Source of the DNA: Globisporangium splendens
Lineage: Eukaryota; Oomycota; Peronosporomycetes; Pythiales; Pythiaceae
Direction of reading: 5' to 3'
DNA length: 64,000 nucleotides
NCBI GenBank assembly: GCA_006386115.1
Contig: VFIW01000058.1
Span: forward strand, 229,474-293,473
Shown: positions 4,707 to 32,548 of the stretch, piece after piece
Position numbering within the stretch: position 1 is the stretch's first letter
Layout of the letters: every line of letters begins with the position of its first letter
The notes under the pieces: model-generated
What the model was told of the DNA's origin: nothing
Seen by the model: the letters and a program-made list of their open reading frames with translations, nothing else
Database searches by the model: none
Made by a program: the position numbers and the translations under genes

Positions 4707-4745
4707 CTCTCCTCTGCTGCACGTTCGCGCTCGCGCTCTTGCCTC

Positions 4746-4755
4746 GCCTCGATAG

Positions 4756-4800
<45 letters not shown>

Positions 4801-4817
4801 TATCCCGGGTCGCGGCA
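4746..4817 (+). pseudogene. tRNA-Phe(GAA) pseudogene, first copy of the array
   Basis: This is the same sequence as the intact copies, but with one base missing in the D arm/A box (ATAGTCAG instead of ATAGCTCAG) and with the B box changed (GGTTCTATCC instead of GGTTCGATCC). Both changes hit internal RNA polymerase III promoter elements, so this copy is probably dead. The anticodon arm with GAA is intact. Confidence 0.8.
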
Positions 4818-5278
4818 GTTTTTGCTTTTCTTGCTCGGCTGCTTGCTATTGTGCTCTGTTCTTTCTTGTTTGTATTTCGTCTGCCGAGCTCACTTGTCGT
4901 GTGTGTATGCTGTTTGGTTGCATGGACATGCGTTGTTTTTGATTTTGATTTTGTTTTTAAGAGGGACAGACGAGAGCAAGACACGAAGAACTGCAAAACA
5001 GACGGTGGTCCGAACAACAGAAAGAGAGAGATTCGACCAGTGCCGTGGCCGACAGTCCACTGCAGGAAACGAGTGGGTGGTCAGGCGATTGAAGCGCACG
5101 GGAGGCGAAAGCGATGACAAAGGAGGTCGGTTGTGGCGCGGGAAGCGTGTAGGTGAAGTGTCGCGCTTGCATGTGAGGTGGATCGAGTATAAATTTGTAG
5201 AGTGCGTGTTGTTGTTTGTGTGGTGTTTTTTGGAGAGAGTGGTGAGTGGGCGAGTTCGTCGCCTCGATAGCTCAGTTG

Positions 5279-5672
5279 AAAGGTTGTCTATTTACTTGAA
5301 TTAGACAGAGTGGCTACTCAATCTACCTAGCAAAATAGAGGTATACACTTACAATACAAGTCTAGTATACATGCTGAGTTTTGTCTGCTTTTGTTTTGTT
5401 TTGAATCTGGACTTGAGTTTGAATCTTTATATTGTCTGGACTTGCAATTCTTTTGATTGAATTGTGTGAATTGCGTGTAGGAGGGGGGATATTTTTGGCT
5501 TTCGGAAGAGGCGGCTAAAAATAGCTCATTCGTCAAACAAGCCCGACCAGCCCCGATGTCGCCCAAGACCACCAAGACACCTCGCCCGCGCTCATCGCCT
5601 GCTGTTGCTGCTGCTGCGCTCTCTCGCTCGCGCTCTTCCTCTGCTACGCGTTCGCGCTCGCGCTCTTGCCTC
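5279..5672 (-). mobile_element. SINE-like non-autonomous element, copy 1
   Basis: This 394-bp element sits between two copies of the 18-nt tRNA-Phe target (5261-5278 and 5673-5690). Read on the minus strand it starts in GC-rich sequence with repeated GCG/GAGCGC motifs. It ends in a tail of about 50 nt that closely matches the LINE tails at 13694 and 23863, including a GTCTA...TAGAC stem-loop just before the target. It has no long open frame (one of 82 codons) and no tRNA-like head that I can see. It probably uses the LINE's reverse transcriptase. Confidence 0.75.
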
Positions 5673-5690
5673 GCCTCGATAGCTCAGTTG

Positions 5691-6381
5691 AAAGGTGTCT
5701 GTATATTGTTGTTAATAAATAGTACGGCAAACTGACTTCTAATTGCTCGCTACGCCCTTGCGTATTCTGTGATGCTAGCACTAATGCTTCTCTTTAATTC
5801 TGTGTTGGTGTGAGATGTTGGTTGTTGCTTTGAGATCGTTGGTGTTGGCTTGGTGAAGGTTGCATTTGTGTCATTTCCTTGAAGTGTGAGTGTCGGTGGT
5901 GCGACACTTGAGGCTGGATTGTTGTCTTGTGGGTTGATTCTTGGCTTGTGAGTTGGTTCTTGGCTTGTGGGTTGATTCTTGGTTTGTAGATTGATTCTTG
6001 CATTCTGGGTTGATTCTTGCATTCTGGGTTGATTCTTGCATTCTGGGTTGATTCTTCGAGTCCGTGCTGGCGATCGGAGTACGCCCCGCTCGTACCACCA
6101 CGACCTCTCTCGGTCGTCTTGCAGTTGCTCACGCGCAATGCGGGTCGCTTCGCTCAGCAAAGAGCACCGGCTCTACCGACGGAGCCGATCGACGGACACT
6201 GGCGAGGCGAACTGGAAGACGATGTGTATGCTGACTCCAAACGCATGTCTTTTTGCGTTTCTTCTTGGTTCTCCGTACACCCATGCTGTAGGCTGAGTGT
6301 GTGGGAGAGGGAAGGCGGAGTGGGGATGGTCTGGTTACTTCTGAAGAGTCGACTTGTGGGGTAGCGAGCAAATTGAGAAGT
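5691..6381 (-). mobile_element. Non-autonomous element E, full-length copy
   Basis: This 691-bp element lies between tRNA-Phe half-sites 5673-5690 and 6382-6399. Its 5' end on the minus strand (CACTTCTCAATTTGC, then a block with GTCGACTCTTCAGAAG) matches the 5' end of the long LINE at 21092. Its 3' tail differs from the LINE and SINE tails (AT-rich, with TATTTATTAACAACAA). Inside, a 19-20 bp tandem repeat (about 5928-6058) makes an open minus frame of 136 codons that is rich in Asn, Gln and Pro. No domain is recognisable, so I do not call it a gene. Confidence 0.65.
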
Positions 6382-6399
6382 GCCTCGATAGCTCAGTTG

Positions 6400-6605
6400 A
6401 AAGGTGTCCGTATATTGTTGTTAATAAATAGTACGGCAAACTGACTTCTAATTGCTCGCTACGCCTTTGCGTATTCTGTGATGCTAGCACTAATGCTTCT
6501 CTTTAATTCTGTGTTGGTGTGAGATGTTGGTTGTTGCTTTGCGATCGTTGGTGTTGGCTTGGTGAAGGTTGCATTTGTGTCATTTCCTTGAAGTGCGAGT
6601 GTCGT
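6400..6605 (-). mobile_element. Element E, 5'-truncated second copy
   Basis: Its first roughly 200 bp on the plus strand repeat the 3' part of the copy at 5691, after which it stops at the next half-site (6606-6623). Loss of the 5' end with an intact 3' tail is the usual outcome of target-primed reverse transcription. Confidence 0.7.
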
Positions 6606-7128
6606 GCCTCGATAGCTCAGTTGAAAGTTGTCTATATTACTGGAATTAGACGAAGTGACTACTCAATCTACCTAGCGTGGACAGTTTCTATCATAAATAT
6701 AATCCTACACTTGTATCTATGATTTTATAATTTATATAAATTTTGAGAATTTTTGTGAGAATAGTCCGTGTGGACCAAAGTCGGGTATATAGTGGGACCT
6801 CTATTCCCTTATTTTGGGAACTTCTGAAGTCGACATACCAAGCCAAGCCGGTCCAAGTCGAGGGAAGCGGACCCAAGTCAAGTCAAGCCGAGCCATCTCG
6901 CCAAATCCAAGCCGTGCGACTTCTCCTCCTGAGACTACTGCTGTCTCACCCGGAGCCCAGGGGAACGTGAGGGCCCCGAAGCCGGGTTCGAGCGCGGAAT
7001 CAATGGAGGGGATTCGTGTGGTCATGGCCGAGGCAGGTGGTTTTGGTGTCGACGACGCTTGTGGAGCAAGTCCAGTTTGGAGCGTGGCGGTCGGTGTCGT
7101 CTGCACGCTTGAGTGCTGAGGAGTGCTC

Positions 7129-10100
7129 TTATCGTTCCCGAATTTGGAACATCGTCGGGTGAGCTGCCAGGAAGTCGTCGAATGCCTGGAGCGTCCTCAT
7201 CTTCGTCACCACTCTCTTGAGCGACCGTAAGTCTTCGTCTTCATATCTTCTTCTCATGTTGTGTCGGATGTGTGCACTGACCGTTGTGTAGATGACTGTC
7301 ATTGCAGGGGTCACCGGTGTGGGCTGTCTTCCGTCGAACAAGCACCGATTGCGATCCGTCCAGAGGAAGTGAAGGGCCACTGCGCGAAGAGTGTGCCACA
7401 CATCGTAGACGACGTCTTCGCATTCCTTCCACTCTTCGTGAATCGACGGCTTCCGCGCCAGAGCGATCATCGTCCACGTTGGCTGGCGCCGAAAGAATGG
7501 CCGCATCAGAAGCCACAGGTGCTCCCACACTCGAGAGGCAAGCGCGCACTCGAAGAACAAGTGCTGCTCGGTCTCGACTGCGTTGCAGCCGTCCTGGATG
7601 CAGTACGTGATTTGTGGGTCGGTGTTTCTCAGAAAGAAGAACCGAGAGCGCACAGGAAGCAGTCGGAACGCCACTCGAAACTGCAAGTCCTCAAAGACTG
7701 GAAGCAGGAGCTGGCGAAGATGCTTGCCGTACTTCACGAACCGTTTCACTTCGTCCTCGTCGACGCTCTGGCTGTGGAGCGTCATTGGGTGGCTTTTCGA
7801 AGGCGGTGTGGGCTTCCACACCAGACGAAGAAGCGCGCTTCTCGGGATGGCCGGAAACAGGCATGTCTTCGTGCCATTGGCGCAACCAAGGTGCGGAAGG
7901 AGACGAAGACTTGAGTCAACTTGCGGTGGTATTGCACCTAGTCGGTCCACGATCTGTGTCGCTTCCTTGTACAACGACCGAAGCCATTGCGACTGGATGC
8001 CGACAGAGATGTGAGTCAGCGTGCGATCAAGGTGAGCCGACACAAAGTCGTTGCAGCTCGGCCATGCCGTTCCACCATGCATGAAGTCCGCCAGTGATCG
8101 CAAACCGAACACTCTCGAGATGTGGAGCCGGAAGCTTCGCTGCGGCTCGGGACACATACCAAGGCACCTTCGATGAGCGTTGACGGTTGCAGTCCGAGGG
8201 GTCTGTTCGTAGTGGAGGTGCGCATCTGCATGGAACCAAATTGGCTGAGCGAGGCACTCCCTCACGCCTTCGTCCGGCGGAAGGTTGCGCCACGTGATCT
8301 CCCAGCTGATCGTGTACCACAGCGTCCAGGTCGCTCTCCACCATCCTGATGTCTTCTGCCACTTGATCATCGAGCCATGCCGCAGCGGCGATACTGTGAG
8401 AAAGTCGAGTGCTCTGCACCTTCCGATGGGTGGTAGAACAGACTTGAGCACCTCACAGCTCGCTGTCGTCCAGTTTCTCTCCTCGGGAGTCGTGGCTGCG
8501 CGCACAAACTGAAGCAGCAGCTGGAGTCGTTGCCGCTTCAGATGAGCCTCGATGCTCGGGATGCCCAGACCACCTTCGCTGCGTCTCAAGTAGAGAAACT
8601 CCTTCGGAATCAGCTGGATGTGTGTGTCCTCTCGGTCGTGCTTCCGACTCAGGACAAACTTGTTCAACATCGACTGCCACCTCTTCACGACTTGCCGAGG
8701 GACAACCACATGTTGCGTGTAGTGCCACAAGCGAGACAGGACCATTGTCTGGGCCACAAGAAGTCTCCCTCGCAGTGTTCTTGCTCGCCTGTACCACGCC
8801 TTGAAGCCGTCGTAGAAACGGTCATCGAGGAAGGACACGATGGCGTCATTGACTGGAGACTGGCTGAACGGAACACCAAGGAACTTCACCGACTCTGCAC
8901 GACCCAGCACTTGGACGCCAGTCAGGCGAGGGCAGTCTTGGTTGCGGTTCAGTGCCATCAGCATCGACTTGCTGAGGTTGAGTTTCGCACCGGATCCCTT
9001 GCAGTAGACATCCACGAGCTCCAGTTGTGCTTGGACACTCGGGATGGAACCGCCAAGAAGCGTGGTGTCATCTGCGAAGAACATGCTGGTGGCCGTGTGG
9101 TCCGCGTTGAGGCACACACCGTATTCCTCGTGCGACCGCAGCATGTTCCCAAGAGGCTCAATTGCCAGAAGGAACAACAAGGCAGACAGAGGATCACCCT
9201 GTTTGACACCTCGCGTCGGATGAAGCGCGGGCTGGATGTTCTGGTTGATGAGAAGGTGTGCTTGCGGCCGCGTGTACAGAAGCCTCACCCACTGGATAAA
9301 CGCAGAGCCGCATCCCATCTTCTCAAGCACTCGGAACATGTAGTCCCAGTTCACTCGGTCGAAAGCCTTCTCGAAGTCCAAGAACATCGCGTACGCTTCG
9401 TCGTCGAGGTTCGTGATCAAGTCTTGGAGATCAGCGAGGAAGCGAACGTGATGGTGGATCGACCTGCCCTTCACGAATGCCTTCTGGTCCGTGTGGATGA
9501 GACTGCACACAACGGACTGGAGTCGGAATGTGAGAGTCTTGGGCAGAGCTTTCACGTCGACTGGCATCAGCGTGATCGGTCGGTAGTTGCCAGGATCGGC
9601 TCTTGATCCCTTCTTGTAGAGGAGCACGACCGCTGACTTGCGTTGGGATGGCAAGAGAGTGCCACGACGAAGCTGGTCGTTGAAGACAATGCTGAGGCAT
9701 TCGCCGAACACATCGGGAGCGACCTGGTAAAAGCCAGCCGTCAAGCCGTCCATACCAGGTACCGAACTCGCCTTCATGTGCCTGATCGAGTCCGCAAGGT
9801 CGGAAGCCGTCACAGGAGCATTCAAGATCTCCCGATCCAGCTCTGACAGCACTCGGATGATCGAGTCAACGAGCGTTTGCTGCTTGGCTTCGTCTGGTGG
9901 AGGAGCTGTTCCTGCTGGACTGTCGGGATCTCCCATCTCGGATCCCCAGTGCTCGAGGAAGCGGAGAGATATCTCTTGAGGGTTCGACGAGACACTTCCA
10001 TTCGGTGTCACGACCTCTTCAATCGATACCTTCCTCAGACACGTGTCCAACGGACGGAAGAAGTGCTTGGTCGATTTCTCGGAGTTGGCTGCCTGGAAGT

Positions 10101-11199
10101 CAAACGCATTGTCTTGGTTGTACTGGCTGGTTCTGGTGACTGTCTCCTTGTAAATCTTCATCGCGTCGTCGAACTGGCTGCGGTTGTTCTCGGTGGAAGA
10201 CTCACGGTAGCGAGCAGCAGCCTGGTCGAGCGAAGCACGAGCCTCTCCAACCGCGGCTGTGTCTTGTGTGCGGAGCTTCTTCTGAACGTCTTGCAGCTGG
10301 CTCTTGATTCTCGTCTTCCACCTCTCCCAGATTTGGCCAGGATTGGTGGAGCCACGGAGCTGGTCTCGGACTGCTTCCGCTTCCTTCTCGATCGCGGACA
10401 CAACCACAGGGTACTCCAGCAGGTAACGGGGGAACTTCCAGTACCCGCGTCCATGCAGCTGGGAGCCAGTCTTGAAACTCACGCAGTGAGCAAGGTGGTC
10501 GCCAGCGTTCTGGGGAACGAAGTACTTGGAGTCGTCGTAGAAGCGTTCATAGAACGGCTCCGAGAGAAGAATATAGTCCAGCCGGTTCTTGCGAGGCAAG
10601 GGACCAGTGAAGACTCGCTTCGTGTCATGGTGGACACGCCACGCATCCACAACGCCAAGACGAGCAAGCCACGCAAGGCAGCTCGAGCGTGCCGGGTCGT
10701 AGCGCAGATCTGGAGACGACGAGTCGAGTCTGGGGTCCAACGGAGTGTTCAGATCCCCCAACACAAGGTGTGTCGCTTGATCGTCGAACCCTTCGGTCGA
10801 GAGACTCGAGAAGAAGTGTTGCTATTCCTGTCGATCCACAGGAGCGTACACGTTGTGAATGTAGACGGGAGCGTCGCTCACCATCAGTTTCACTACGAGG
10901 TACCGACCTGGGACGGCGAGGCTTGGTTGTTCCGCAGCCGTTTCAAAACCCGGCACGTCAGAGCGAAGAACGGTGAGAACACCGCCACTGCGTCCGCGTG
11001 TGGGTCGATCCAACTGGGAGTTCGGGTCGTTTACGAAGACTTGGTGCTTGAAGCTTGAGTCGAGGTGAAACTTGAAGGTCGAGAGGTGTTGCTTGTCACT
11101 GAACTTGGTTTCTTGGACGCATGATATCGAGTGCTTCGATACCATGCTGTCGATAAATAGGTGACCGTTGTCTTTGATGCCGTTAGTGTTCACGGTCAA
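7129..11199 (-). pseudogene. LINE2 ORF2: APE endonuclease-reverse transcriptase with one in-frame stop
   Basis: The frame runs from the endonuclease start (VNTNGIKDNG, SCVQETKF) through RT motifs (GVKQGDPLSALL, the FADDTTLL catalytic box) to a C-terminal Cys/His segment (ETEQHLFFECA) typical of the zf-RVT domain. It is about 1,356 codons, very close to LINE1 ORF2. One TAG at 10822-10824 replaces a Lys codon of LINE1, after which the same frame continues. No ATG precedes the endonuclease in this frame; see the hairpin at 11182-11208. Nicking and target-primed reverse transcription are inferred from the family. Confidence 0.85.
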
Positions 11200-11208
11200 G
11201 ACACTAAC
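11182..11208 (-). promoter_or_regulatory. Conserved hairpin at the ORF1/ORF2 junction of LINE2
   Basis: On the minus strand the arms GTTAGTGT and ACACTAAC enclose a short loop, a few tens of bases downstream of the ORF1 stop and at the first codons of the endonuclease. LINE1 has the same hairpin at 18378-18404 with a compensating A-T to G-C change at the outermost pair. A role in starting or recoding ORF2 is inference. Confidence 0.5.
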
Positions 11209-11239
11209 GTTGCTCCACGAGGGCTGAGTCGAGGTTGGT

Positions 11240-12697
11240 TTAGCAACTGACAGCGAGACTGCCTGCTGCCATCACCACGCTACCATCAACCACCTGAAGC
11301 TTCAAGACTGACGCGTCATCTGGGTAGTAGTCTTCGAGGTCACGAAGAGCTTCCAGGTCCTCAAGAATGCGTCCTTGCCACTGCACTTCAGCCCATTGCT
11401 TCATGCACAACGCTCCAAGCTCCGAGCGTAGCAGCATCAACAGCGTGTTGGGATGCAGCAGACGGGTGTGGTGTGCAGGGATCCACGGCACCGGCATTCC
11501 AGTCAGGTACTGGATCCAGTGGTCATTCGCGAATATCGTCGGGGCGATGGACATCAGCATGAGCTCAAAGAGACTCAGTGCCTTTGTCGTTCGAGACAGT
11601 TCTCGGACTGGCTCCGACGTTGTCCACCACTTTGCAGCGGTGTGGAACAGATCCCCTCGCGTCGACGGAACCTTGGTTTTCATAAACTTCTTCCACTTCG
11701 TGCTGAACGTCGTGTCCTCACTTGGGTCGGAAGCACTCAAGACGCGGTTGATCATGTGAAGTTGAGCGAGCTCCTGCATCTCGTGTCCAGTCCCTGCCAT
11801 CTTGAGTGACAGAGCACTGTTGAACGCGAGCGGGTTCTCGACAGCGTGTTTGGTCACATGATCTGCGTTGGTGGCATTCGCAACGATCTTGCACGCAGCG
11901 TCAACCTTCGTGTCGGCGTGAGTCAATCGGTCTGGGAGAACGCTGAGAAGAGCAGTGTTCTCATCGTTCGCCATCGACTCGGCCACTTCCACAATGTGCG
12001 AAGCTTTCGGTGACTTTCTCACTTTCGTGTGGTGCTTCTCGATGAAGAAAGCCGATTCCTTGGACTCCTTCAATGCTTCTGGTCGCTTGACTTCAGTCGG
12101 CAAAACTTGGTATCGAATGCCGTACTTCTTGTCTGCGGTCACTCTCTTCGCTTCGAAAGCCACCTCCACTGATTGGAGTACGTCGAAGTAGTTGGACGTC
12201 GCGATTCCATCAAGAGGCTGCGGCTGTTGCTTGGCAACCATGTTGGCGAAGTCGGTGCCGTTCCTCGATCGCTTCTTGTTGTTCTTCTTGGTCACGGGTT
12301 GGAACCCATCGCTTTCTCCGTTGGTCAAGAGAAGAGGCTGCTGCGGACCAACTCGAGGGCTGGCAGGCGGAGTGATCTTCCCGATTGATCCGTTGAAGGT
12401 GCTCACGGATAAACCCGAGGTGGGGCTGCCAGGTTTTCTCGGCACAATTGGACCAGAAATCTGTCCATGCTGAGCTCCTCGCTGGGGCTGCGAATCTCCA
12501 TTCACTTGTCCCTTGGTCGCAATCGGCGGCGAAGGTTGCTTCGGATTGCCTGCGGCTTGGGCATACGATTTCGCAGAGCTTGGTGTGTTTGGCTTCTGAC
12601 TTCTGAGGACTGGCTCAGACATCGGGTCAGGGAGCGGAAACGCACCACCAGGCACTCCAAGCTCAAGAGCTTGTGCAGAGCGATAGCCGAAAGGCAA
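11240..12697 (-). pseudogene. LINE2 ORF1, 5'-truncated
   Basis: The 485-codon frame matches the C-terminal half of LINE1 ORF1, including SERLPFGYRS, TFNGSIGKITPP, SNYFDVLQS and KMAGTGHEMQE. The first about 360 residues are missing because the element is truncated at 12747. There is no CCHC knuckle in this half. It ends in ...LAVSC followed by TAA, and ORF2 begins in the +1 frame across that stop. ORF1 products of this group bind RNA, and the function here is inferred only from position. Confidence 0.75.
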
Positions 12698-12747
12698 ACG
12701 CTCCGAGCGGGACGGCGCATTCTTGCCGTGGGCAGGATGGAGCTTGT

Positions 12748-12751
12748 GCCT

Positions 12752-12809
<58 letters not shown>

Positions 12810-12820
12810 GGGTCGCGGCA
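12748..12820 (+). tRNA. tRNA-Phe (GAA)
   Basis: This 73-nt cloverleaf has D arm GCTC/GAGC, anticodon stem TCAGA/TCTGA with loop CTGAAGA (GAA at the anticodon positions), variable AGGTC, and T arm CCTGG-TTCGATC-CCGGG. The acceptor stem has one T4:C69 mismatch, shared by all copies. A T5 run follows and would serve as the pol III terminator. It is regenerated downstream of LINE2 by the target-site duplication. Confidence 0.92.
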
Positions 12821-13281
12821 GTTTTTGCTTTTCTTGCTCGGCTGCTTGCTATTGTGCTCTGTTCTTTCTTGTTTGTATTTCGTCTGCCGAGCTCACTTGT
12901 CGTGTGTGTATGCTGTTTGGTTGCATGGACATGCGTTGTTTTTGATTTTGATTTTGTTTTTAAGAGGGACAGACGAGAGCAAGACACGAAGAACTGCAAA
13001 ACAGACGGTGGTCCGAACAACAGAAAGAGAGAGATTCGACCAGTGCCGTGGCCGACAGTCCACTGCAGGAAACGAGTGGGTGGTCAGGCGATTGAAGCGC
13101 ACGGGAGGCGAAAGCGATGACCAAGGAGGTCGGTTGTGGCGCGGGAAGCGTGTAGGTGAAGTGTCGCGCTTGCATGTGAGGTGGATCGAGTATAAATTTG
13201 TAGAGTGCGTGTTGTTGTTTGTGTGGTGTTTTTTGGAGAGAGTGGTGAGTGGGCGAGTTCGTCGCCTCGATAGCTCAGTTG

Positions 13282-13675
13282 AAAGGTTGTCTATTTACTT
13301 GAATTAGACAGAGTGGCTACTCAATCTACCTAGCAAAATAGAGGTATACACTTACAATACAAGTCTAGTATACATGCTGAGTTTTGTCTGCTTTTGTTTT
13401 GTTTTGAATCTGGACTTGAGTTTGAATCTTTATATTGTCTGGACTTGCAATTCTTTTGATTGAATTGTGTGAATTGCGTGTAGGAGGGGGGATATTTTTG
13501 GCTTTCGGAAGAGGCGGCTAAAAATAGCTCATTCGTCAAACAAGCCCGACCAGCCCCGATGTCGCCCAAGACCACCAAGACACCTCGCCCGCGCTCATCG
13601 CCTGCTGTTGCTGCTGCTGCGCTCTCTCGCTCGCGCTCTTCCTCTGCTACGCGTTCGCGCTCGCGCTCTTGCCTC
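13282..13675 (-). mobile_element. SINE-like non-autonomous element, copy 2
   Basis: It is nearly identical to copy 1 at 5279-5672 and flanked by half-sites 13264-13281 and 13676-13693. Because the copies sit at the same relative place in every unit and are so similar, this one may stem from duplication of the whole unit rather than an independent insertion. Confidence 0.75.
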
Positions 13676-13887
13676 GCCTCGATAGCTCAGTTGAAAGTTG
13701 TCTATATTACTAGAATTAGACGGAGTGACTACTCAATCTACCTAGCGGAAGACTATTTAAATACCATACTATACTCTAAATATGTATACTCCTGGATGCC
13801 ACGAGTGTATACCTGTGGACCATCCTTTTTTTCTTTTTTTCTTTTTTGGAATAACCAGGTTTGAGTAATTGACCACCAATTGTGCGT

Positions 13888-13960
13888 GGTCATGTAGCTC
13901 AAATGGTAAAGTACCGGGTTCCCAACCTGGAGGTCGCGGGTTCGATCCCCGCCGTGGCCA
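13888..13960 (+). tRNA. tRNA-Gly (CCC), possibly a pseudogene
   Basis: The 73-nt sequence folds with acceptor GGTCATG/CGTGGCC (wobble pairs), anticodon stem CCGGG/CCTGG, loop TTCCCAA (anticodon CCC) and T arm GCGGG-TTCGATC-CCCGC. The D arm is weak (only three of four pairs) and no T run follows directly, so it may not be a working gene. It lies between the LINE1 tail and ORF2 stop, so it was either carried by LINE1 or inserted into it. Confidence 0.65.
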
Positions 13961-14308
13961 AACTTGGAAAATCACATAAAAACTGCACTCCCGTAATTTA
14001 ACTGTTGTGAATCCGTAATTTATCTGTTTCTTGCAGGCTTGGGCTCATTCGTCAATTTGCGTCGTCGAGAGCTGGTGTCGCTTGGAGAGTGATGGTCGCT
14101 GGTGCTTCTGAGGAAGAGAACTCAGGGAGGGAGGAACCTGATACCGTGTCCATAATGCAATCGGCTGAGCCGCGCCGTGAGGCGGAGGTGTCGGGGGGCA
14201 TAGGTTCGGTTGAGGGGGATTCCCAACGTGAGAGCTCCGACTCAGGAGAATCAGAGAATAGCTCTTCGGCGCACTGGAGAGTCAATTCCTTCGTGCGTGT
14301 CAGTGCAG

Positions 14309-17300: not shown

Positions 17301-18388
17301 GCAGTATCTTGGTTGTACTGGCTCGTCCTCGTGACCGTCTCCTTGTAGTTTCTCATGGCTTCATCGAAGTGCTCTCGATTTGAGTCATTGGAAGCGACGC
17401 GATACTGAGCAGCAGCTTGATCGAGTTGGATCCGAGCCTCTTCGACAGCTTGAGTGTCTTGCATGCGAAGCTTCTTCTGCACGTCTTGGAGTTGGGACTT
17501 GATGCTCTCCTTCCACTTCTCCCACACCTTGCCAGGGTATGTCGAAGTGCGAAGCTTGTCGAGCACCATCTCTGCCTCCTTCTCGATCGCCGAGACCACG
17601 AGTGGGTACTCGAGGAGGTAGCGAGGGAACTTCCAGTACCCTCGACCGTGGAGCTGCGAACCAGACCTGAAATTCACACTGTGAGCGAGGTGGTCTCCAG
17701 CATGCTTCGGCAGGAAGTACTTGGAGTCATCGTAGAAGCGCGTGTAGAAGTCTTCGGACAACAAGATGTAGTCGAGTCGGTTCTTCCGAGGGAGAGGACC
17801 AGTGAAGACTCGCTTGGTGTCATAGTGGATCCGCCACGCATCGACCACACCCAGCTTCGCCAACCACTCCAAGCAGCTGGACCTGCCAGGGTCGTAGCGC
17901 AAGGCGGGAGACGACGAGTCGAGTCTGGGGTCCAACGGAGTGTTCAGATCTCCCAACACAAAATGCGTCGCTTGATCTTCGAACCCTTCGGTGTCCAGAC
18001 TCGAGAAGAATTGTTGTTTCTCTTGCTGGTCCACTGGCGCGTACACGTTGTGGATGTAGATGGGAGCACCCTCAACCACCACTTTCACGACGAGGTAGCG
18101 ACCTGCGACCGATAGACTTGGTAGCTCGATAGCCGAGTCGAAGCCTGGGAAGTCGGAACGGAGTACCGTGAGCACTCCATTGCTTCTTCCTCGTGTCGGT
18201 CGATCGAGCTGTGAGTTGGGGTCGTTCACGAAGACCTTGTGCTTGAAGCTCGAGTCGAGGTGGAACTTGAAATTGGAAAGGTGTGTGTTGTCGCCGAACT
18301 TGGTTTCTTGGACACACGACACCGAGTACTTGGAGAGCATGCTCTCAATAAATAAATGACCGTTCTTCTTGATGCCATTAGTGTTCAC
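14309..18388 (-). CDS. LINE1 ORF2: APE-type endonuclease and reverse transcriptase
   Basis: This uninterrupted frame of about 1,360 codons holds, in order: an exonuclease-endonuclease-phosphatase domain (VNTNGIKKNG, SCVQETKFGD, FVLGDLNTPLD, about residues 1-240); a linker; RT with FEKAFDRVNWDYMF, GVKQGDPLSALL and the catalytic FADDSTLL (about 470-760); and a C-terminal zf-RVT segment CNTIETEQHLFFEC. The reaction is nicking of the target strand and reverse transcription of LINE RNA onto it. The frame lacks any ATG before the first endonuclease strand. The start given is a GTG, and the frame stays open upstream into the end of ORF1 (+1 relative to it). Confidence 0.9.
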   Translation of the reverse strand: MNTNGIKKNGHLFIESMLSKYSVSCVQETKFGDNTHLSNFKFHLDSSFKHKVFVNDPNSQLDRPTRGRSNGVLTVLRSDFPGFDSAIELPSLSVAGRYLVVKVVVEGAPIYIHNVYAPVDQQEKQQFFSSLDTEGFEDQATHFVLGDLNTPLDPRLDSSSPALRYDPGRSSCLEWLAKLGVVDAWRIHYDTKRVFTGPLPRKNRLDYILLSEDFYTRFYDDSKYFLPKHAGDHLAHSVNFRSGSQLHGRGYWKFPRYLLEYPLVVSAIEKEAEMVLDKLRTSTYPGKVWEKWKESIKSQLQDVQKKLRMQDTQAVEEARIQLDQAAAQYRVASNDSNREHFDEAMRNYKETVTRTSQYNQDTAFDFQAANSEKSTKHFFRPLDTSLRRVSIEEVMTPSGSVSSNPQEISLRFLEHWGSEMGDPDSPAGRAPPPDETMQRKLLDSIVCFVAEVDRAILNAPVTASDLASAIRHMKTSSAPGMDGLTAGFYQVAPDVFGECLSIVFNDRLQRGVLLSSQRKSAVVLLHKKGSRAEPGNYRPIALVQVDVKVLSKALTYRLQQVILDLIHPDQKGFVKGRSIHHHVRLLADLQDLVTSRDEEAFALFLDFEKAFDRVNWDYMFRVLERMGIGSEFVQWIKLLYTEPQAHLVINQNIQPALHPTRGVKQGDPLSALLFILTIEPLGNLLRSHEEYGVCLNADHTSTSIFFADDSTLLSSSIPNLQAQLGIVKEYCKGSGAKLNLAKSMLLALNRNQTCPPLAGVHVLGRAETVKYLGIPFGQSSVDEDLVEFLEQRFYDGFKLWYRRARTLRGRLLVAQTMVLSRLWHYTQHVSIPTTVVRRWQSMLNRFVLSRKHDRDASHIQLIPREFLYLPRSDGGLQIPSLDAHLKRQRLQLVLQFMRAATADGVRNWTTASTELLKLVLPRTGGCNALDFLVISPLRHGDMIQWRHASAWWRTTWKSWYMIRWEITWHDLPPDERAWYGLRQPIWFHSDTELHFEQTPRVHTSSAHRRCIGTVPEPQRSFRLHVSRVFGVRSLADFMREGCAWPSQQDFVQRHLDFTLVSTTPGQQVKWLRVLYNEATQIVERLGARELVLQTTSAARRAVPHLGCKSGVKVCLIPAIPRSALLRVVWTPAPPTKPHPMTLHSQRVDEQQIKAFIKYSKHLRKILLPVFEDLQFRLAFRLLPVRSRFWFLEASNPRIRICVREECNTIETEQHLFFECSLARQLWGHVCSLVSPFFRARPTWHNIALATKMRVRDNWEACEDVVGDAWHVLRAMTLHFIWSDRNRCLFDGRQPTPAAPALSVIFTTVSAHFRHSLRRRYDGDERGSLHKVIEAMKQYVPFGDFASSKSTAFQIRHLQV

Positions 18389-18404
18389 AGTCAGAACACT
18401 AATG
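18378..18404 (-). promoter_or_regulatory. Conserved hairpin at the ORF1/ORF2 junction of LINE1
   Basis: Perfect 9-bp arms ATTAGTGTT and AACACTAAT enclose the loop CTGACTGTG on the minus strand. It lies about 30 nt after the ORF1 stop and covers the first codons of the endonuclease. LINE2 keeps it with a compensating base-pair change (11182-11208). Confidence 0.55.
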
Positions 18405-18434
18405 TTGCTCCAGGTGGTGTTGGATGAGGATGGT

Positions 18435-20998
18435 TTAGCAACGAGTCGCCAAACCGCCCGCTACCATCGTAACCTCACCACCAGCGACTTGGAGCTGCAG
18501 CACTGAAGAGTCTTCCGGGTAAAAACCTTCAAGCTTTTGGAGCGACTCGAGGTCGTCCAGAAGGTGACCCTGCCACTGCACCTCGCTCCATTGCTGCATG
18601 CAGTGAGAGCCAAGCTCGGACCGCAAGAGACGAAGGGGGTGTTGGGATGGAGGAGACGCGCGTTGTGTGCTGGGATCCACTCGACTGGCTGACCAGTGAG
18701 GTACTGGATCCAGTGGTCGTTGGCAAAGATCATCGGCGCGATCGACATGAGCATGAGCTCGAAGAAGCCCAAAGCCTTGGATGCGCGAGTCAGCTCCTTG
18801 ATCGAATCCGACGTCGTCCACCACTTCGCGCACGTCTTGATGATGTCGGCTCGTTTTGATGGAACTACCGTTCCCATCAACTTCTTCCATTTCGTGCTGA
18901 AAGTGGTATCGTCATTCGGATGAGTCGCACACAGCACGCGGTTGATCACATGCAACTGGGCGACCTCAGCAATCTCATGACCACTCCCTGCCATCTTCAA
19001 TGACAGAGCACTGTTGAAAGCGAGAGGAGATTCGATCGCCTTCTTCGTGATGTGGTCAGGATTCGTGGCGTTCTCGAGGAGCTTGCACACGCCTTCGACC
19101 TTCTTGTCTGCTTCAGCTAGACGGTCAGGGAGGGTGTTGAGAAGCGCCGTGTTCTCGTCGTTGAGCATCGACTCGGTCACTTCAAGAAGCGGCGATGCCT
19201 TTGACGCCTTCCTGATCTTGGTGTGATGCTTCTCGACGAAAAAGGCAGACTCGGTCGAGGTCTTCAACTCAGCAGGACGTTTCACATCCACTGGGAGAAT
19301 TTGATGGCGGACTCCATACTTCTTATCAGCAGTCGCGTTCTTCGATTTGAACTTGACCTCCATCGACTGGAGTGCTTGAAAGTAGTTGGAGGTGGCGATG
19401 CCATTCAAAGGCTGTGCAGATTGTTTCACCATCAGGTTGGAGAAATCAATCGCATTGCGCGAGCGCTTCTTCTTGTTCTTGGACACCGTGGCAAAACCAT
19501 CGTCTGGTCCGTTGGTCAACAAGAGTAGCTTCTTCGGAGCTTTCGGACTTCCAGGTGGAGTGATCTTACCATTCGAGCCATTGAAGGTCGAAATCGACAG
19601 TGCGTCGTCGGAGTTGCTTGGAAGCTTGGCGAGCTGGTTGGCAACGGACTGCTGCCCATGCTGAGCTCCGTGCTGGGGCTGGCCTTCACGTTTCTTCGCT
19701 TCCTCAACTGCTTTCTGCAGTGAGGTTTGCTTCGGCATCGGCTTTGCGTTTGCAGCTTGCGCGTAAGTCTTCGGTTGATGTTGCTGTTGCTGCTGTTGCT
19801 GCTTTTGTCGAGCTGGCTCAGTCACTGGCCCACTCGATGGAGAAACACTGTCGGAAGTGCCGAGATCAAGTCCATGATGTGAGCGATAACCATACGGCAA
19901 GCGCTCGGACTGGAACGGAGCATTCTTCCCATGCGCGGGGTGCAGCTTGTTGTCGAACAACACTTGGTCGCAGACACTGCCGTTCACCATCAACGCGCTT
20001 GGACACGATGTGGACAAGAAGTACACTCGCCAGGTCGCAGACGTGATACCAGTCGCGAGGTTCACTTCGCGGAAGGTATCGTATACCGGCTTGCATCCGA
20101 GCAAGAACAACCGGTGTAGGATCACATCCGTGTCAGTGTCCGAGTCGACATTGGCGATATCAAGGAAGTACTTCCCGCCAAGGACGTCAAACTCCTTGAA
20201 CGTGAAGACACCACCGAGGATGTTCACCTTCGTGCGCTCGAGGAGCAGGCAGGCTTCCTTCGATTTCACCTTGACGCGAAGGTTGCCACCAGGGAGCTTG
20301 GAGATTTGACCGATCTCGTAGCGCTGGTACAAGTCTTCGAGAGCTTCATTGCCGTGATTCTTGCCAGAAAGCGACGCCATGATCTTCTGGAGCGGAGTCT
20401 TCGCGAGCGTCCGTCCAGTGTCGATCACCATGTCGTACTTGGATCGAGGGAGTGCATACGGACGCGCTTGCTCCATGCGTGGGGCAATGGACGACCAGTC
20501 ACTGCCTGCGGCGTACTGGCGTTCAATCGCTTCGATGTCGCATGCAAGAGGCTTTGGGGTCTCCACACGACGACGCACAGCGTCTGCTTCAGCATTGTCG
20601 CGACGGAGGAGTTCTTGTTGCGCGAGCACATCGGCCATTGTCGGACGCGGATCCGTGTTTGGATGCGAGGCGGCGTTGGCAGGAGGCAGCGCGGGTTCCA
20701 TCGGCTCATCATCTGACGGGGTGTCAGGAGGCGAGACGATCTCATTCGGCGGAATTTCCATCGACACATCCACTTCGTTGTCTATTCCAGTCGGCTCAGG
20801 AGCAGACGGAAGCGCGTCGGGTTGAGAGGCTGAAACGCCACTCAAAGGAAGAGGTCCAGACCTTTCCAAAATTTCCGAGGGGGATGGGCCAGGAGTGGGA
20901 CCTGGCTGGATACTGGGTGCGAACCCAGATTCCAGACCAGATGCGACACGTGGCAGCTGCTCGGAAGGAAGAGAAGAGGCGGAAGTTGGATTTTCCAT
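18435..20998 (-). pseudogene. LINE1 ORF1 (putative RNA-binding protein) with one frameshift
   Basis: It starts at ATG 20998 (MENPTSASSL), about 95 nt from the element's 5' end. An acidic/proline-rich N-terminus is followed by a region (about residues 215-360) with alternating strands and helices that could be an RRM-like fold, a Gln-rich stretch encoded by CAG/CAA repeats (near 19770-19805), and a C-terminal domain shared with LINE2 (TFNGSNGKITPP, KMAGSGHEI). Comparison with LINE2 shows a one-base frame change in a C run near 18635. The frame as read stops at 18461, whereas the conserved C-terminus continues in another frame to TAA at 18435. Its role is inferred from LINE ORF1 proteins. Confidence 0.75.
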
Positions 20999-21092
20999 GG
21001 GGACAGGCGGAGGGATGGCGGCGAAGGCGGCGGCTGGGAGAGGGTTCTTCTGAAGAGTCGACTTGAGGGGTAGCCGGCAAATTGAGAAGTGC

Positions 21093-21096
21093 GCCT

Positions 21097-21154
<58 letters not shown>

Positions 21155-21165
21155 GGGTCGCGGCA
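21093..21165 (+). tRNA. tRNA-Phe (GAA)
   Basis: It is identical to the copy at 12748, with intact A and B boxes and a downstream T run. It is regenerated immediately after the 5' end of LINE1. Confidence 0.92.
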
Positions 21166-21625
21166 CTTTTTGCTTTTCTTGCTTGGCTGCTTGCTGTTGT
21201 GCTGTGTTCTTTCTTGTTTGTATTTCGTCTGCCGAGCTCACTTGTCGTGTGTGTATGCTGTTTGGTTGCATGGACATGCGTTGTTTTTGATTTTGATTTT
21301 GTTTTTAAGAGGGACAGACGAGAGCAAGACACGAAGAACTGCAAAACAGACGGTGGTCCGAACAACAGAAAGAGAGAGATTCGACCAGTGCCGTGGCCGA
21401 CAGTCCACTGCAGGAAACGAGTGGGTGGTCAGGCGATTGAAGCGCACGGGAGGCGAAAGCGATGACCAAGGAGGTCGGTTGTGGCGCGGGAAGCGTGTAG
21501 GTGAAGTGTGGCGCTTGCATGTGAGGTGGATGAGTATAAATTTGTAGAGTGCGTGTTGTTGTTTGTGTGGTGTTTTTTGGAGAGAGTGGTGAGTGGGCGA
21601 GTTCGTCGCCTCGATAGCTCAGTTG

Positions 21626-21989
21626 AAAGGTTGTCTATTTACTTGAATTAGACAGAGTGGCCACTCAATCCACCTAGCAAAATAGAGGTATACACTTACA
21701 ATACAAGTCTAGTATACATGCTGAGTTTTGTCTGCTTTTGTTTTGTTTTGAATCTGGACTTGAGTTTGAATCTTTATATTGTCTGGACTTGCAATTCTTT
21801 TGATTGAATTGTGTGAATTGCGTGTAGGAGGGGGGATATTTTTGGCTTTCGGAAGAGGCGGCTAAAAATAGCTCATTCGTCAAACAAGCCCGACCAGCCC
21901 CGATGTCGCCCAAGACCACCAAGACACCTCGCCCGCGCTCACCGCCTGCTGTTGCTGCTGCTGCGCTCTCTCGCTCGCGCTCTTCCCTC
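21626..21989 (-). mobile_element. SINE-like non-autonomous element, copy 3 (shorter 5' end)
   Basis: At 364 bp it lacks about 30 bp of the GC-rich 5' end seen in the other copies. It is flanked by half-site 21608-21625 and the intact tRNA at 21990. The different 5' end suggests either independent insertion or a deletion within the GCG-rich repeats. Confidence 0.75.
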
Positions 21990-21993
21990 GCCT

Positions 21994-22051
<58 letters not shown>

Positions 22052-22062
22052 GGGTCGCGGCA
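21990..22062 (+). tRNA. tRNA-Phe (GAA)
   Basis: The sequence is identical to the copies at 12748 and 21093 and is followed by TTTTT. The next whole tRNA begins 928 bp later (tRNA + spacer + half-site + SINE). Confidence 0.92.
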
Positions 22063-22523
22063 GTTTTTGCTTTTCTTGCTCGGCTGCTTGCTATTGTGCT
22101 CTGTTCTTTCTTGTTTGTCTTTCGTCTGCCGAGCTCACTTGTCGTGTGTGTATGCTGTTTGGTTGCATGGACATGCGTTGTTTTTGATTTTGATTTTGTT
22201 TTTAAGAGGGACGGACGAGAGCAAGACACGAAGAACTGCAAAACAGACGGTGGTCCGAACAACAGAAAGAGAGAGATTCGACCAGTGCCGTGGCCGACAG
22301 TCCACTGCAGGAAACGAGTGGGTGGTCAGGCGATTGAAGCGCACGGGAGGCGAAAGCGATGACAAAGGAGGTCGGTTGTGGCGCGGGAAGCGTGTAGGTG
22401 AAGTGTCGCGCTTGCATGTGAGGTGGATCGAGTATAAATTTGTAGAGTGCGTGTTGTTGTTTGTGTGGTGTTTTTTGGAGAGAGTGGTGAGTGGGCGAGT
22501 TCGTCGCCTCGATAGCTCAGTTG

Positions 22524-22917
22524 AAAGGTTGTCTATTTACTTGAATTAGACAGAGTGGCTACTCAATCCACCTAGCAAAATAGAGGTATACACTTACAAT
22601 ACAAGTCTAGTATACATGCTGAGTTTTGTCTGCTTTTGTTTTGTTTTGAATCTGGACTTGAGTTTGAATCTTTATATTGTCTGGACTTGCAATTCTTTTG
22701 ATTGAATTGTGTGAATTGCGTGTAGGAGGGGGGATATTTTTGGCTTTCGGAAGAGGCGGCTAAAAATAGCTCATTCGTCAAACAAGCCCGACCAGCCCCG
22801 ATGTCGCCCAAGACCACCAAGACACCTCGCCCGCGCTCACCGCCTGCTGTTGCTGCTGCTGCGCTCTCTCGCTCGCGCTCTTCCTCTGCTACGCGTTCGC
22901 GCTCGCGCTCTTGCCTC
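22524..22917 (-). mobile_element. SINE-like non-autonomous element, copy 4
   Basis: This is a 394-bp copy flanked by half-site 22506-22523 and the tRNA at 22918. It is nearly identical to copies 1, 2 and 5. Confidence 0.75.
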
Positions 22918-22921
22918 GCCT

Positions 22922-22968
<47 letters not shown>

Positions 22969-22990
22969 TGTTCGATCCCGGGTCGCGGCA
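22918..22990 (+). tRNA. tRNA-Phe (GAA) with a T-arm change
   Basis: It matches the intact copies except for G to T in the T stem/B box (CCTTGTTCGATCC instead of CCTGGTTCGATCC). This removes one T-stem pair and weakens the B box, so it may be poorly transcribed. Confidence 0.8.
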
Positions 22991-23450
22991 GTTTTTGCTT
23001 TTCTTGCTCGGCTGCTTGCTATTGTGCTCTGTTCTTTCTTGTTTGTATTTCGTCTGCCGAGCTCACTTGTCGTGTGTGTATGCTGTTTGGTTGCATGGAC
23101 ATGCGTTGTTTTTGATTTTGATTTTGTTTTTAAGAGGGACGGACGAGAGCAAGACACGAAGAACTGCAAAACAGACGGTGGTCCGAACAACAGAAAGAGA
23201 GAGATTCGACCAGTGCCGTGGCCGACAGTCCACTACAGGAAACGAGTGGGTGGTCAGGCGATTGAAGCGCACGGGAGGCGAAAGCGATGACCAAGGAGGT
23301 CGTTGTGGCGCGGGAAGCGTGTAGGTGAAGTGTCGCGCTTGCATGTGAGGTGGATAGAGTATAAATTTGTAGAGTGCGTGTTGTTGTTTGTGTGGTGTTT
23401 TTTGGAGAGAGTGGTGAGTGGGCGAGTTCGTCGCCTCGATAGCTCAGTTG

Positions 23451-23844
23451 AAAGGTTGTCTATTTACTTGAATTAGACAGAGTGGCTACTCAATCCACCT
23501 AGCAAAATAGAGGTATACACTTACAATACAAGTCTAGTATACATGCTGAGTTTTGTCTGCTTTTGTTTTGTTTTGAATCTGGACTTGAGTTTGAATCTTT
23601 ATATTGTCTGGACTTGCAATTCTTTTGATTGAATTGTGTGAATTGCGTGTAGGAGGGGGGATATTTTTGGCTTTCGGAAGAGGCGGCTAAAAATAGCTCA
23701 TTCGTCAAACAAGCCCGACCAGCCCCGATGTCGCCCAAGACCACCAAGACACCTCGCCCGCGCTCATCGCCTGCTGTTGCTGCTGCTGCGCTCTCTCGCT
23801 CGCGCTCTTCCTCTGCTACGCGTTCGCGCTCGCGCTCTTGCCTC
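23451..23844 (-). mobile_element. SINE-like non-autonomous element, copy 5
   Basis: This is a 394-bp copy between half-sites 23433-23450 and 23845-23862. Here the right-hand tRNA is replaced by a LINE. Confidence 0.75.
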
Positions 23845-23862
23845 GCCTCGATAGCTCAGTTG

Positions 23863-25900
23863 AAAGTTGTCTATATTACTAGAATTAGACGGAGTGACTA
23901 CTCAATCTACCTAGCGTTGACAGTTTCTACCATAAATATAATCCTACACTTGTATCTATGATTTTATAATTTATATAAATTTTGAGATTTTTTGTGAGAA
24001 TAGTCCGTATGGACCAAAGTCGGGTATATAGTGGGACCTCTAATCCCTTATTTTGGGAACTTCTGAAGTCGACATACCAAGCCAAGTCAAGCCAAGCCGG
24101 TCCAAGTCGAGCCGAGCCATCTCGCCAAAGCCAAGCCGCGTGGATCTTTTTCTGTTGTTTCTGCTGTCTCACCCGGAGCCCAGGGGAACGTGAGGGCCCC
24201 GAAGCCGGGTTCGAGCGCGGAATCAATGGAAGGGATTCGTGTGGTCATGGCCGAGGCAGGTGGTTTTGGTTTCGACGACGCTTGTGGAGCAAGTCAAGGT
24301 TGGAGCGTGGCGGTCGGTGTCGTCTGCACGCTTGAGTGCTGAGGAGTGCTCTTATCGTTCCCGAATTTGGAGCATCGTCGGGTGAGCTGCCAGGAAGTCG
24401 TCGAATGCCTGGAGCGTCCGCATCTTCGTCACCACTCTCTTGAGCGACCGTAAGTCTTCGTCTTCATATTTTCTCATGTTGTGTCGGATGTGTGCACTGA
24501 CAGTTGTGTATATGACTGCCATTGCAGGGGTCACCGGTGTGGGCTGTCTTCCATCGAACAAGCACCGATTCCGATCCGACCAGATGAAGTGAAGAGCAAC
24601 AGCGCGGAGCGTGTGCCACACGTCGCAGATGACGTCCTTGCTGTCGATCCATTCGTCCTGGATGACAGGCTTCTTCGCTGTTGCGATTGCTGTCCACGTC
24701 GGGTGTGAACGGAAGAATGGCGCCATGAGAAGTCGCACATGCTCCCAGACCCTCGCTGCGAGAGCGCACTCGAAGAACAGGTGCTTCTCGGTCTCGATCG
24801 CATCGCATCCGTTGCGGACGCAGTAGACGATGCGCGGGTTCGACGTCTGAAGAAACCAGAATCGTGAGCGCACGGGGAGGAGTCGGAACGCGAGGCGAAA
24901 CTGCAGATCCTCGAACACGGGGAGCAGGATCCTGCGCAGGTGCTTGCTGAGGTTCACGAACTCCTTGATCTCGTCGTCGCCGATGCTCTGGTTGTGGAGC
25001 GTCATCGGATGTGGTTTGTTGGGCGGTGTCGGGGTCCAGACCACACGGAGGAGCGCGCTCCTCGGGATCGCTGGCACCACGCACACCTTCGATCCACTCG
25101 TGCAGCCAAGGTACGGTGAAGGGGGACGACGAGGTGTGTCGCTCGCAAACACAGTCTGCAGTCCACCCAACCGAGTTACCACTTGGGAAGCTTCCTTGTA
25201 CAACGCTCGGAGCCACTGCGCTTGGACGCCAACAGCGATTGAGGCGAGTGTGATGTCGAGATGCCTCTCCACGAACTCGTTGCAGCTTGGCCACGAGTTT
25301 CGACCTCTCATGAAGTCAGCGAGCGAACGCAACCCGAAGACTCTCGAGATGTGCAGACGGAACCCACGCTGGGGTTCTGGCACCATCCCAAGACAGCGAC
25401 GGTGAGCGTTGGCAGCGAGACTCCTTGGTGTCTGCTCGTAGTGGAGGTCTGGGTCCGAGTGGAACCAGATCGGTTGATGGAGTCCGTACTGGACACGCTC
25501 GTCCGTCGGAAGGTCGTGCCACGAGATCTCCCATCGGATCTTGTATCACCAGACCCACGTCTCCTTCCACCAAACAGAGATCAACTCCCACTTGATCATC
25601 ATGCCATGTCGAAGAGGAGACACCGTGAGGAAGTCGAGCGCCGTGCGTCGACCGACTCGAGGAAGAACCGCTGTGAGCATCTCCGCACTCGGTGTCGTCC
25701 AGCTTCGCTCGTCTGGCTTGCTCGCTGTTCGCATGAACTGGAGCAGATGCTGGAGGCGTTGTCGCTTCAGTTGTGCTTCGATGCTTGGGATCTGCAGACC
25801 ACCGTCACTCCTCGGGAGATACAAGAACTCCTTCGGAATGAGCTGGATGTGGCTTGCGTCTCGATCGTGCTTCCGACTCAAGACGAACCGATTCAGCATC
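23863..25900 (-). mobile_element. LINE fragment (LINE3), interrupted by gypsy element A
   Basis: It starts at the target half-site with the common LINE tail and shares its 3' UTR with LINE2. It then runs through the C-terminal part of ORF2 until it is cut at 25900 by the LTR of element A. The remaining 5' part is not found on the other side of the gypsy nest, so the locus has been rearranged or deleted. Confidence 0.85.
24352..25899 (-). pseudogene. LINE3 ORF2, C-terminal fragment
   Basis: The frame matches the last roughly 515 residues of LINE1/LINE2 ORF2 (LNRFVLSRKHDRDASHIQLIP, then the zf-RVT segment ETEKHLFFECA). A TGA at 25546-25548 interrupts it, after which the same frame continues. 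It lacks the endonuclease and the catalytic RT box. Confidence 0.85.
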
Positions 25901-32522: not shown

Positions 32523-32548
32523 GACTCTAGTAGTCGGCGACGCCGAAG

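Follow-up and report, generated by a model that had tools for sequence, protein, structure and literature searches.

Inside tRNA genes of the oomycete Globisporangium splendens we found long interspersed nuclear elements (LINEs) and shorter elements, all in antisense orientation, inserted directly behind nucleotide (nt) 14, with a duplication of nt 1-14 that leaves a whole tRNA gene on the far side of the insertion. The pattern was recognised in a 64,000-nucleotide stretch of contig VFIW01000058.1 (the window) and followed through one draft assembly of one strain, of which 53,310,241 bases in 195 contigs were searched; the published draft is given as 53.3 Mb in 197 or 198 scaffolds (PMC7163027; here and below, papers are cited for their accessible excerpts). 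Both junctions, the duplication, the empty sites, the apurinic/apyrimidinic endonuclease-like (APE) and reverse transcriptase (RT) domains and the spread over tRNA kinds were read directly, and the elements are APE-type LINEs that form a real, letter-precise, tRNA-restoring family of target-specific retrotransposons without long terminal repeats (non-LTR). The insertions very probably arise when target-primed reverse transcription starts from a nick behind A14, within the A box of the internal promoter for RNA polymerase III (Pol III), with a stagger of about 14 bp over tRNA nt 1-14 by which the tRNA gene is rebuilt; the order of the nicks, the RNA intermediate and the recognition of A-box sequence by the endonuclease itself are what we infer from this pattern.

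For tRNA-Phe, the head GCCTCGATAGCTCAGTTG occurs in 14 exact copies in the window, against a mean of 0.00 over 100 shuffles. At ten of these sites (5261, 5673, 6382, 6606, 13264, 13676, 21608, 22506, 23433 and 23845) an element tail follows, just as a first-pass annotation of the window had described, and at four (12748, 21093, 21990 and 22918) the remainder of tRNA-Phe follows; the head of a fifth tRNA-Phe, at 4746, has lost one base. From left to right, a unit consists of a tRNA-Phe, a spacer, a half-site, at least one antisense element, each with a new half-site after it, and a whole tRNA-Phe (Table 1). The same annotation had every stack running into a whole tRNA-Phe, which holds for four of the five stacks in the window; the stack at 23433-25900 ends in a truncated LINE without tRNA-Phe. 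Its wider proposal of site-specific antisense retroelements inside a tRNA, with target duplication and a rebuilt gene, in an oomycete host, is borne out by the junctions and empty sites described below.

Insertion point and target

For the left junctions, we searched the genome with a conserved-tail pattern built from the window tails, which misses unlike tails; it matched 77 places, against none with the reversed control, and 76 of the junctions were readable, the remaining one being cut by a contig end. A junction was called matched where the host letters agree, with no more than one mismatch, with the first 14 nt of a tRNA gene that was itself read in at least one copy; the count leaves out SerLeu?a and SerLeu?b, two heads whose type was assigned from the half-sites. 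Directly behind nt 14 of a matched tRNA gene lie 66 of the 76 readable tails, in 11 head types: Phe (22), Ala(AGC) (10), Ile (6), Thr(AGT/CGT) (5), Met (5), Lys (4), Thr(TGT) (4), Tyr (4), Asn (3), Leu(TAA) (2) and Ala(CGC) (1). The target had first been taken to be tRNA-Phe, and a genome-wide search for the tail had been proposed as a check: a matched tRNA gene does hold 67 of the 76 tails, of which 66 sit behind nt 14, but they are not confined to tRNA-Phe, with ten other head types struck at nt 14 and tRNA-His struck elsewhere.

At 71 of the 76 junctions the last host letters are CA, and at 66 they are GCTCA; the first element letters are GTTGAAAG at 65. In tRNA-Phe, Tyr and Asn, the border between host and element is indistinguishable because native nt 15-18 are GTTG. 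The native letters at the junction are GCTCAAATGG in Ala(AGC), GCTCAGTCGG in Ile, Met and Lys, and GCTCAGTGG in Thr; the left junction nevertheless reads GCTCA followed by GTTGAAAG in these genes as well, so GTTG belongs to the element. A single rule fits, in which the host runs through A14 and the element then brings its own GTTG, so that the host duplication is 14 nt and the 18 nt counted before are 14 + 4. This corrects the first-pass annotation, which had placed the nick at 18/19 and given the duplication as 18 bp; the nick lies after A14, and the duplication is 14 bp in tRNAs and 13-15 bp at three further sites where left and right ends could both be read.

Empty sites, with a whole tRNA and the native flank found at the half-sites, had been expected under the same proposal and were read for five families (Phe, Ile, Met, Lys and Thr(TGT)). 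Because they carry the same native flank, the half-site belongs to the target. The same 18 nt start every window copy, as they would if the heads were part of the elements, like the tRNA-derived ends of short interspersed nuclear elements (SINEs); genome-wide, the head varies by locus while the element stays constant, native flanks run continuously across the head and the empty sites carry it, and with these observations element-owned heads are refuted and have practically no chance of being right.

A different possibility is that a few old insertions were multiplied together with tRNA arrays, with no ongoing site-specific jumping. Tandem element-tRNA units (Thr at C34, Ala at C121) and copies 99.5% alike at C29 and C34 fit such a history, and recombination between elements could create new combinations of head and tail. 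The number of these combinations, 43 distinct pairings of head type and tail subtype (two with unmatched heads and one with His; the table behind them counts a few overlapping loci twice, and only the number of combinations is used), led us to reject pure array duplication, which we regard as very improbable. Moreover, one tail subtype, TACATA, is found at eight tRNA head types, and the same short-element stack is found with different LINE copies (96.5% alike, with different tails) in the window and at C188.

Right junctions and the rebuilt gene

On the other side of the elements, a pattern for the element 5' end matched 108 genome places, against none with the control, and 100 were listed; we read 85 5' ends, namely 84 of the listed 100 and one weaker match, leaving out nine on C63, three on C35 and one each on C67, C113, C165 and C182. 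Of the 85, 63 lead into a complete tRNA gene in which head and body agree; ARAGORN called 61 of these genes, including one whose head lacks a single base, and two Gly genes were recognised from their letters. Of the remaining ends, one runs into a cut tRNA-Tyr (C153:39881), two into chimeric tRNAs, 15 into another half-site (one degraded) and four into other sequence. Where the head was readable, the element 5' end abuts tRNA nt 1 without offset in 66 of 78 cases, and 1-6 additional bases intervene in the remaining 12. In the 5'-truncated LINE1 of the window, LINE similarity extends to the last base ahead of tRNA nt 1 (12747/12748), and since this truncated copy also stops at nt 1, it is the target and not the element end that sets the right boundary. 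Left junctions were paired with the closest 5' end of like orientation, which for at least two of them (C153:234771 and C34:5030) is that of a neighbouring E element with the same head. Of the 51 pairs obtained, 41 have the same tRNA head on both sides, six are mismatched, three come from sites outside tRNA genes, and in one the left side could not be read.

These junctions are best explained by the following course of events. The encoded endonuclease would nick the tRNA-sense strand after A14 (...GCTCA^), and the free 3' end would prime the copying of an element RNA ending in ...CUUUCAAC, the first added letters being GTTGAAAG. The second strand would be cut about 14 bp upstream, at tRNA nt 1, and fill-in would duplicate nt 1-14, leaving the left copy as the half-site behind the native flank and rejoining the right copy to nt 15 onward; because A14 lies 14 nt from the tRNA start, this downstream copy would be whole again. 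An intact tRNA gene would then stand at the element 5' end, open to repeat insertion and hence to the formation of stacks, and because the rebuilt gene is again a target, newer elements would be expected rightward in each stack.

The two chimeric tRNAs stand directly behind element 5' ends, one at C162:1696475-1696498 with an Asn head on a Met body, the other at C35:84329-84352 with a Met head on an Ile body that has lost bases. They suggest another route, in which the element RNA would start in the antisense strand of a donor tRNA gene and the donor head at the end of the cDNA would pair with D-arm sequence shared by the target, so that the rebuilt head is derived from the donor and not from duplication. 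Besides these misfits (Asn/Met at C162:1696498, Met/Ile at C35:84352), a Phe half-site in a Met cluster (C162:1695132) and a Met half-site in a Phe cluster (C29:124732) point the same way, three of the four misfit heads lying behind an E-type (GAG) 5' end and an E coming after the fourth. Gene conversion between arrays, however, yields the same chimeras, the head fits the body in 63 whole tRNAs and one cut tRNA against two misfits, the 5'-truncated LINE1 likewise ends at nt 1, and three copies outside the A box (C46, C151 and C164) show plain duplications of 13-15 bp with no tRNA head. We therefore consider a donor-derived head improbable.

Those three copies, read at both ends, have duplications whose last letters are CA or CAGT and whose length fits an ordinary staggered cut. 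The copy at C164 (L110) lies 5 bp ahead of tRNA-Leu(CAA), close to a tRNA gene even though it is outside the A box. This favours a role for a Pol III factor, in which TFIIIC or another factor bound to the A box would recruit the element, as TFIIIB does for TRE5-A, and the endonuclease would only fix the letter. The A box is a TFIIIC contact. An interaction of the TRE5 ORF1 protein with TFIIIB is also described (PMC5911963). The copies at C46 and C151 sit at ACTCA and CCACA sites in pieces of 244-500 bases in which ARAGORN found no tRNA (nor did it in the pieces read at C99 and C170), and here the nick falls at one exact letter, against the spread of TRE5 and TRE3 positions; recruitment by such a factor is thus possible, though we think it rather unlikely. 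The system offers a direct way of testing whether it is the endonuclease of a LINE or the Pol III machinery that recognises the A box.

Several observations weigh against insertion by a nick after A14 as a complete account. One tail lies in tRNA-His at nt 21, not nt 14, and nine of the 76 left junctions lie outside any matched tRNA gene, four behind unmatched tRNA-like heads (C16, C143, C145 and C182) and five elsewhere (C46, C99, C151, C164 and C170). The repeat units of C63:4250-23261 hold at least nine E-like 5'-end matches (3 mismatches), mostly about 1.5 kb apart, and neither of the two that were read has a tRNA. The tails of the C34 LINEs at Phe and Thr are just 88% identical over 68 nt. 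Of the six mismatched pairs, one ends in a chimeric tRNA and five bridge different tRNA arrays (Phe-Ile, Phe-Thr, Ala-Thr, Ala-Met and His-Ala), for which recombination between elements would be the simplest reading; with six of 51 pairs mismatched, recombination or template effects also act. Many copies share a history of array duplication, so the 66 matched junctions do not equal the number of jumps, and all of these data come from a single draft assembly of one strain. The array-bridging elements lie at C188:19353-26612, C34:37371-44752, C122:16759-24065, C129:124839-132296 and C114:22501-29856.

In genomic terms, the assembly contains 20 tRNA-Phe genes: 14 have a half-site and an element upstream, four have the native flank, and two (window 4746 and C188:43778) have a fragment of a short-element 5' end upstream. 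LINEs in multicopy RNA genes, such as R1 and R2, normally break the copy they enter; a cut position and stagger that fit the tRNA, with the gene rebuilt, should remove much of the cost of insertion. We hypothesise that the Pol III A box serves a whole lineage of oomycete LINEs as a universal insertion target, with the 14-nt ruler from tRNA start to A14 equal to the enzyme stagger, so that almost any such tRNA can be hit again without loss, while head exchange and the joining of arrays give chimeric tRNAs and reshaped clusters; this broader picture is tentative, with somewhat less than an even chance of holding. Large tandem tRNA arrays are known in oomycetes (PMC9584435), and the elements are a possible source of change in them. 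At the same time, the site is a natural, letter-precise and gene-restoring landing place for insertion by reverse transcription.

Element families, encoded proteins and the window

Compared across tRNA kinds, LINE copies some 7 kb long are 97.0% (Phe-Ile), 95.8% (Phe-Thr) and 95.3% (Phe-Met) identical, and because they are so alike (95-97%), one LINE family uses many tRNA genes; it can cross tRNA kinds because it uses the internal promoter that they share. Among the 16 LINE copies compared, some retain both long frames. Five other LINEs share the last 49-58 nt of LINE2 at 94-100% identity, while the rest of its 3' untranslated region (UTR) has no blastn match in four of these five, as would be expected of a tail recognised by the RT. 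Folded singly, two of five tails gave z below -3, one -2.1 and two between 0 and -0.6; the tails are too alike for covariation to be read from their alignment, and predicted structure means single-sequence folds throughout.

The first-pass annotation had also seen different tails at one site, and the 'SINE' and 'element E' it named there are indeed real short elements. The 394-nt 'SINE' shares 94 nt at 89% with one LINE tail, the rest being unmatched to the LINEs compared, and a search for a tRNA-type Pol III promoter in this element (5275-5672 and copies) gave no B box within two mismatches on either strand. Element E has only 36-49 nt at its 5' end in common with the LINEs; of 30 E tails, 29 match the A-box motif plus tail within three mismatches (28 GCTCA and one ACTCA), and the thirtieth (C34:12778) begins three bases behind a listed head. 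A further short element with the tail AAAGTGGCTGTATATTACC, which folds well, sits at the same tRNA site at C29:115501, 121230 and 121506 and at C162:1714193, and is about 260 bp long where both ends were read.

As for the proteins, PF00078 (reverse transcriptase) was found in two window frames and PF03372 (APE) in that of 14309-18388; the RT frame of LINE1, which lacks its N-terminal part, has no PF03372 match. The second open reading frame (ORF2) of LINE2 has human L1 ORF2p as its nearest solved protein (E 1.7e-63) and, by eye, a C-x4-C-x7-H-x4-C motif in its C-terminal part. RT, an N-terminal APE-like endonuclease, target duplications and 5' truncation, all features of APE-type LINEs, are thus found together. 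A protein search gave 137 matches, and among the 120 of them listed, the named relatives come from Peronospora matthiolae, Phytophthora fragariaefolia, Phytophthora megakarya and Aphanomyces astaci, with one more whose name begins 'Plasmo' and which is probably Plasmopara.

The RT tree has 114 rows (midpoint root, long branches, and no finer clade name since it contains no Tx1, R1 or TRE reference); in it the oomycete rows fall in a clade of 74 (SH-aLRT 97), separate from the fungal rows and from the plant rows (100). Within a group of 54 rows (SH-aLRT 95) fall the window LINE, P0058, P0047 and the Peronospora and 'Plasmo' rows. P0058 lies on C16, whose only tail is of a Leu-type subfamily at a tRNA-like head; its close relative P0047 lies on C129, which has four tails, two of them at tRNA-Leu(TAA). 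From this placement, A-box targeting is predicted in the Peronospora and 'Plasmo' species. Outside the 54-row group are two deeper relatives from the G. splendens genome itself. P0059 (C184:398874-402300, L137), about 45% identical to the LINE protein, is followed by a poly(A) run next to an apparent protein gene, and the 1.5 kb read there contains no tRNA; P0064 (C173), whose 3' end is undefined, likewise has no tRNA in 1.5 kb. These two cases suggest that A-box targeting arose within the clade. DNA-level scans of viral contigs and of other genome contigs gave no related locus.

Table 1. Elements, half-sites and tRNA genes of the window (positions in the 64,000-nt stretch).
Feature	Position	Strand	Remarks
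tRNA-Phe, one-base head deletion	4746..4817	+	directly behind fragment of short-element 5' end
tRNA-Phe half-site, nt 1-14 (GCCTCGATAGCTCA)	5261..5274	+
Short non-autonomous element ('SINE')	5275..5672	-	LINE-like 3' tail at left end
tRNA-Phe half-site, nt 1-14	5673..5686	+
Element E	5687..6381	-	different tail, LINE-like 5' terminus (36-49 nt)
tRNA-Phe half-site, nt 1-14	6382..6395	+
Element E copy, 5'-truncated	6396..6605	-	family D19
tRNA-Phe half-site, nt 1-14	6606..6619	+
LINE1, 5'-truncated	6620..12747	-	RT frame 7129-10764; ORF1 remnant 11240-12697
Whole tRNA-Phe	12748..12820	+	abuts truncated LINE1 5' end
tRNA-Phe half-site, nt 1-14	13264..13277	+
Short element ('SINE')	13278..13675	-
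tRNA-Phe half-site, nt 1-14	13676..13689	+
LINE2, full length	13690..21092	-
LINE2 conserved 3' tail, ~57 nt as RNA	13690..13746	-	predicted stem-loop, terminus ...CUUUCAAC
LINE2 ORF2, APE endonuclease and reverse transcriptase	14309..18388	-	PF03372, PF00078
LINE2 ORF1	18461..20998	-	no Pfam match at E 0.001
Whole tRNA-Phe at LINE2 5' end	21093..21165	+	junction with two extra bases
tRNA-Phe half-site, nt 1-14	21608..21621	+
Short element ('SINE')	21622..21989	-
Whole tRNA-Phe	21990..22062	+
tRNA-Phe half-site, nt 1-14	22506..22519	+
Short element ('SINE')	22520..22917	-
Whole tRNA-Phe	22918..22990	+
tRNA-Phe half-site, nt 1-14	23433..23446	+
Short element ('SINE')	23447..23844	-
tRNA-Phe half-site, nt 1-14	23845..23858	+
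LINE3 fragment, 3' part only	23859..25900	-	right side without tRNA

Within the 3' UTR of LINE2, antisense to it, lies a whole tRNA-Gly(CCC) (13888-13960) whose 3' flank resembles the native Gly locus and which was probably captured by 3' read-through; C122:5606-5678 holds a tRNA of equal Rfam score, 180 bp into the tail of a different LINE. Elsewhere in the window are a Ty3/gypsy element with a chromodomain (27564-33640, minus strand), a second gag frame in the opposite orientation (34380-35423, plus), an RT fragment with RNase H domains like those of LTR elements (575-1573, minus) and a frame with a Wntless-like transmembrane domain (49494-50951, minus).

Comparison with known systems

The R1 and R2 LINEs of ribosomal DNA also enter a multicopy gene at an exact site, R1 with a duplication of about 14 bp, and interrupt the rRNA gene; here, in contrast, the tRNA gene survives insertion. 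Dewa, Keno and Mutsu all belong to the Tx1 clade. They too are LINEs at multicopy RNA genes, Keno being APE-type and Dewa sitting at the tRNA-Leu spacer; their targets are the spacer of one tRNA kind, the U2 small nuclear RNA (snRNA) gene or 5S, and in the excerpts none is given as the A box of many tRNAs (PMC3706591, PMC4640811). Utopia elements are likewise site-specific LINEs inside a small-RNA gene and occur in oomycetes including Pythium, with a restriction-like endonuclease and a U2 snRNA target (PMC4640811), whereas we found an APE domain and tRNA sites.

Among the open-access titles and abstract beginnings covered by our searches we found no LINE inserted inside tRNA genes, and an earlier description of the family in subscription papers or Repbase is possible; tRNA genes are named among LINE targets in general terms, without a position, in the excerpts of PMC4640811 and PMC8869645. 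Close in habit are the LINEs TRE5, TRE3, NLTR-A and NLTR-B of social amoebae, also APE-type, tied to tRNA genes in compact genomes and mostly with ORF1 and ORF2. Their insertions lie beyond the tRNA itself, at scattered positions from tens to about 150 bp upstream or downstream, and the excerpts make no mention of a half-site or rebuilt tRNA (PMC5911963, PMC5006619); here insertion is after tRNA nt 14. On the other hand, a fixed site inside the tRNA is shared with the Dada elements, several lineages of which use A-box nt 8-13 (TAGCTC in Perkinsus marinus). Dada, however, are DNA transposons with 6-7 bp duplications, in families bound to particular tRNA kinds, and disrupt the tRNA gene (PMC3706591, PMC8869645), whereas in G. 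splendens we found an RT in place of a transposase and a duplication of 14 bp. As far as our literature searches reach, a LINE that lands inside a tRNA and leaves the gene rebuilt is a new variant of insertion for target-specific non-LTR retrotransposons.

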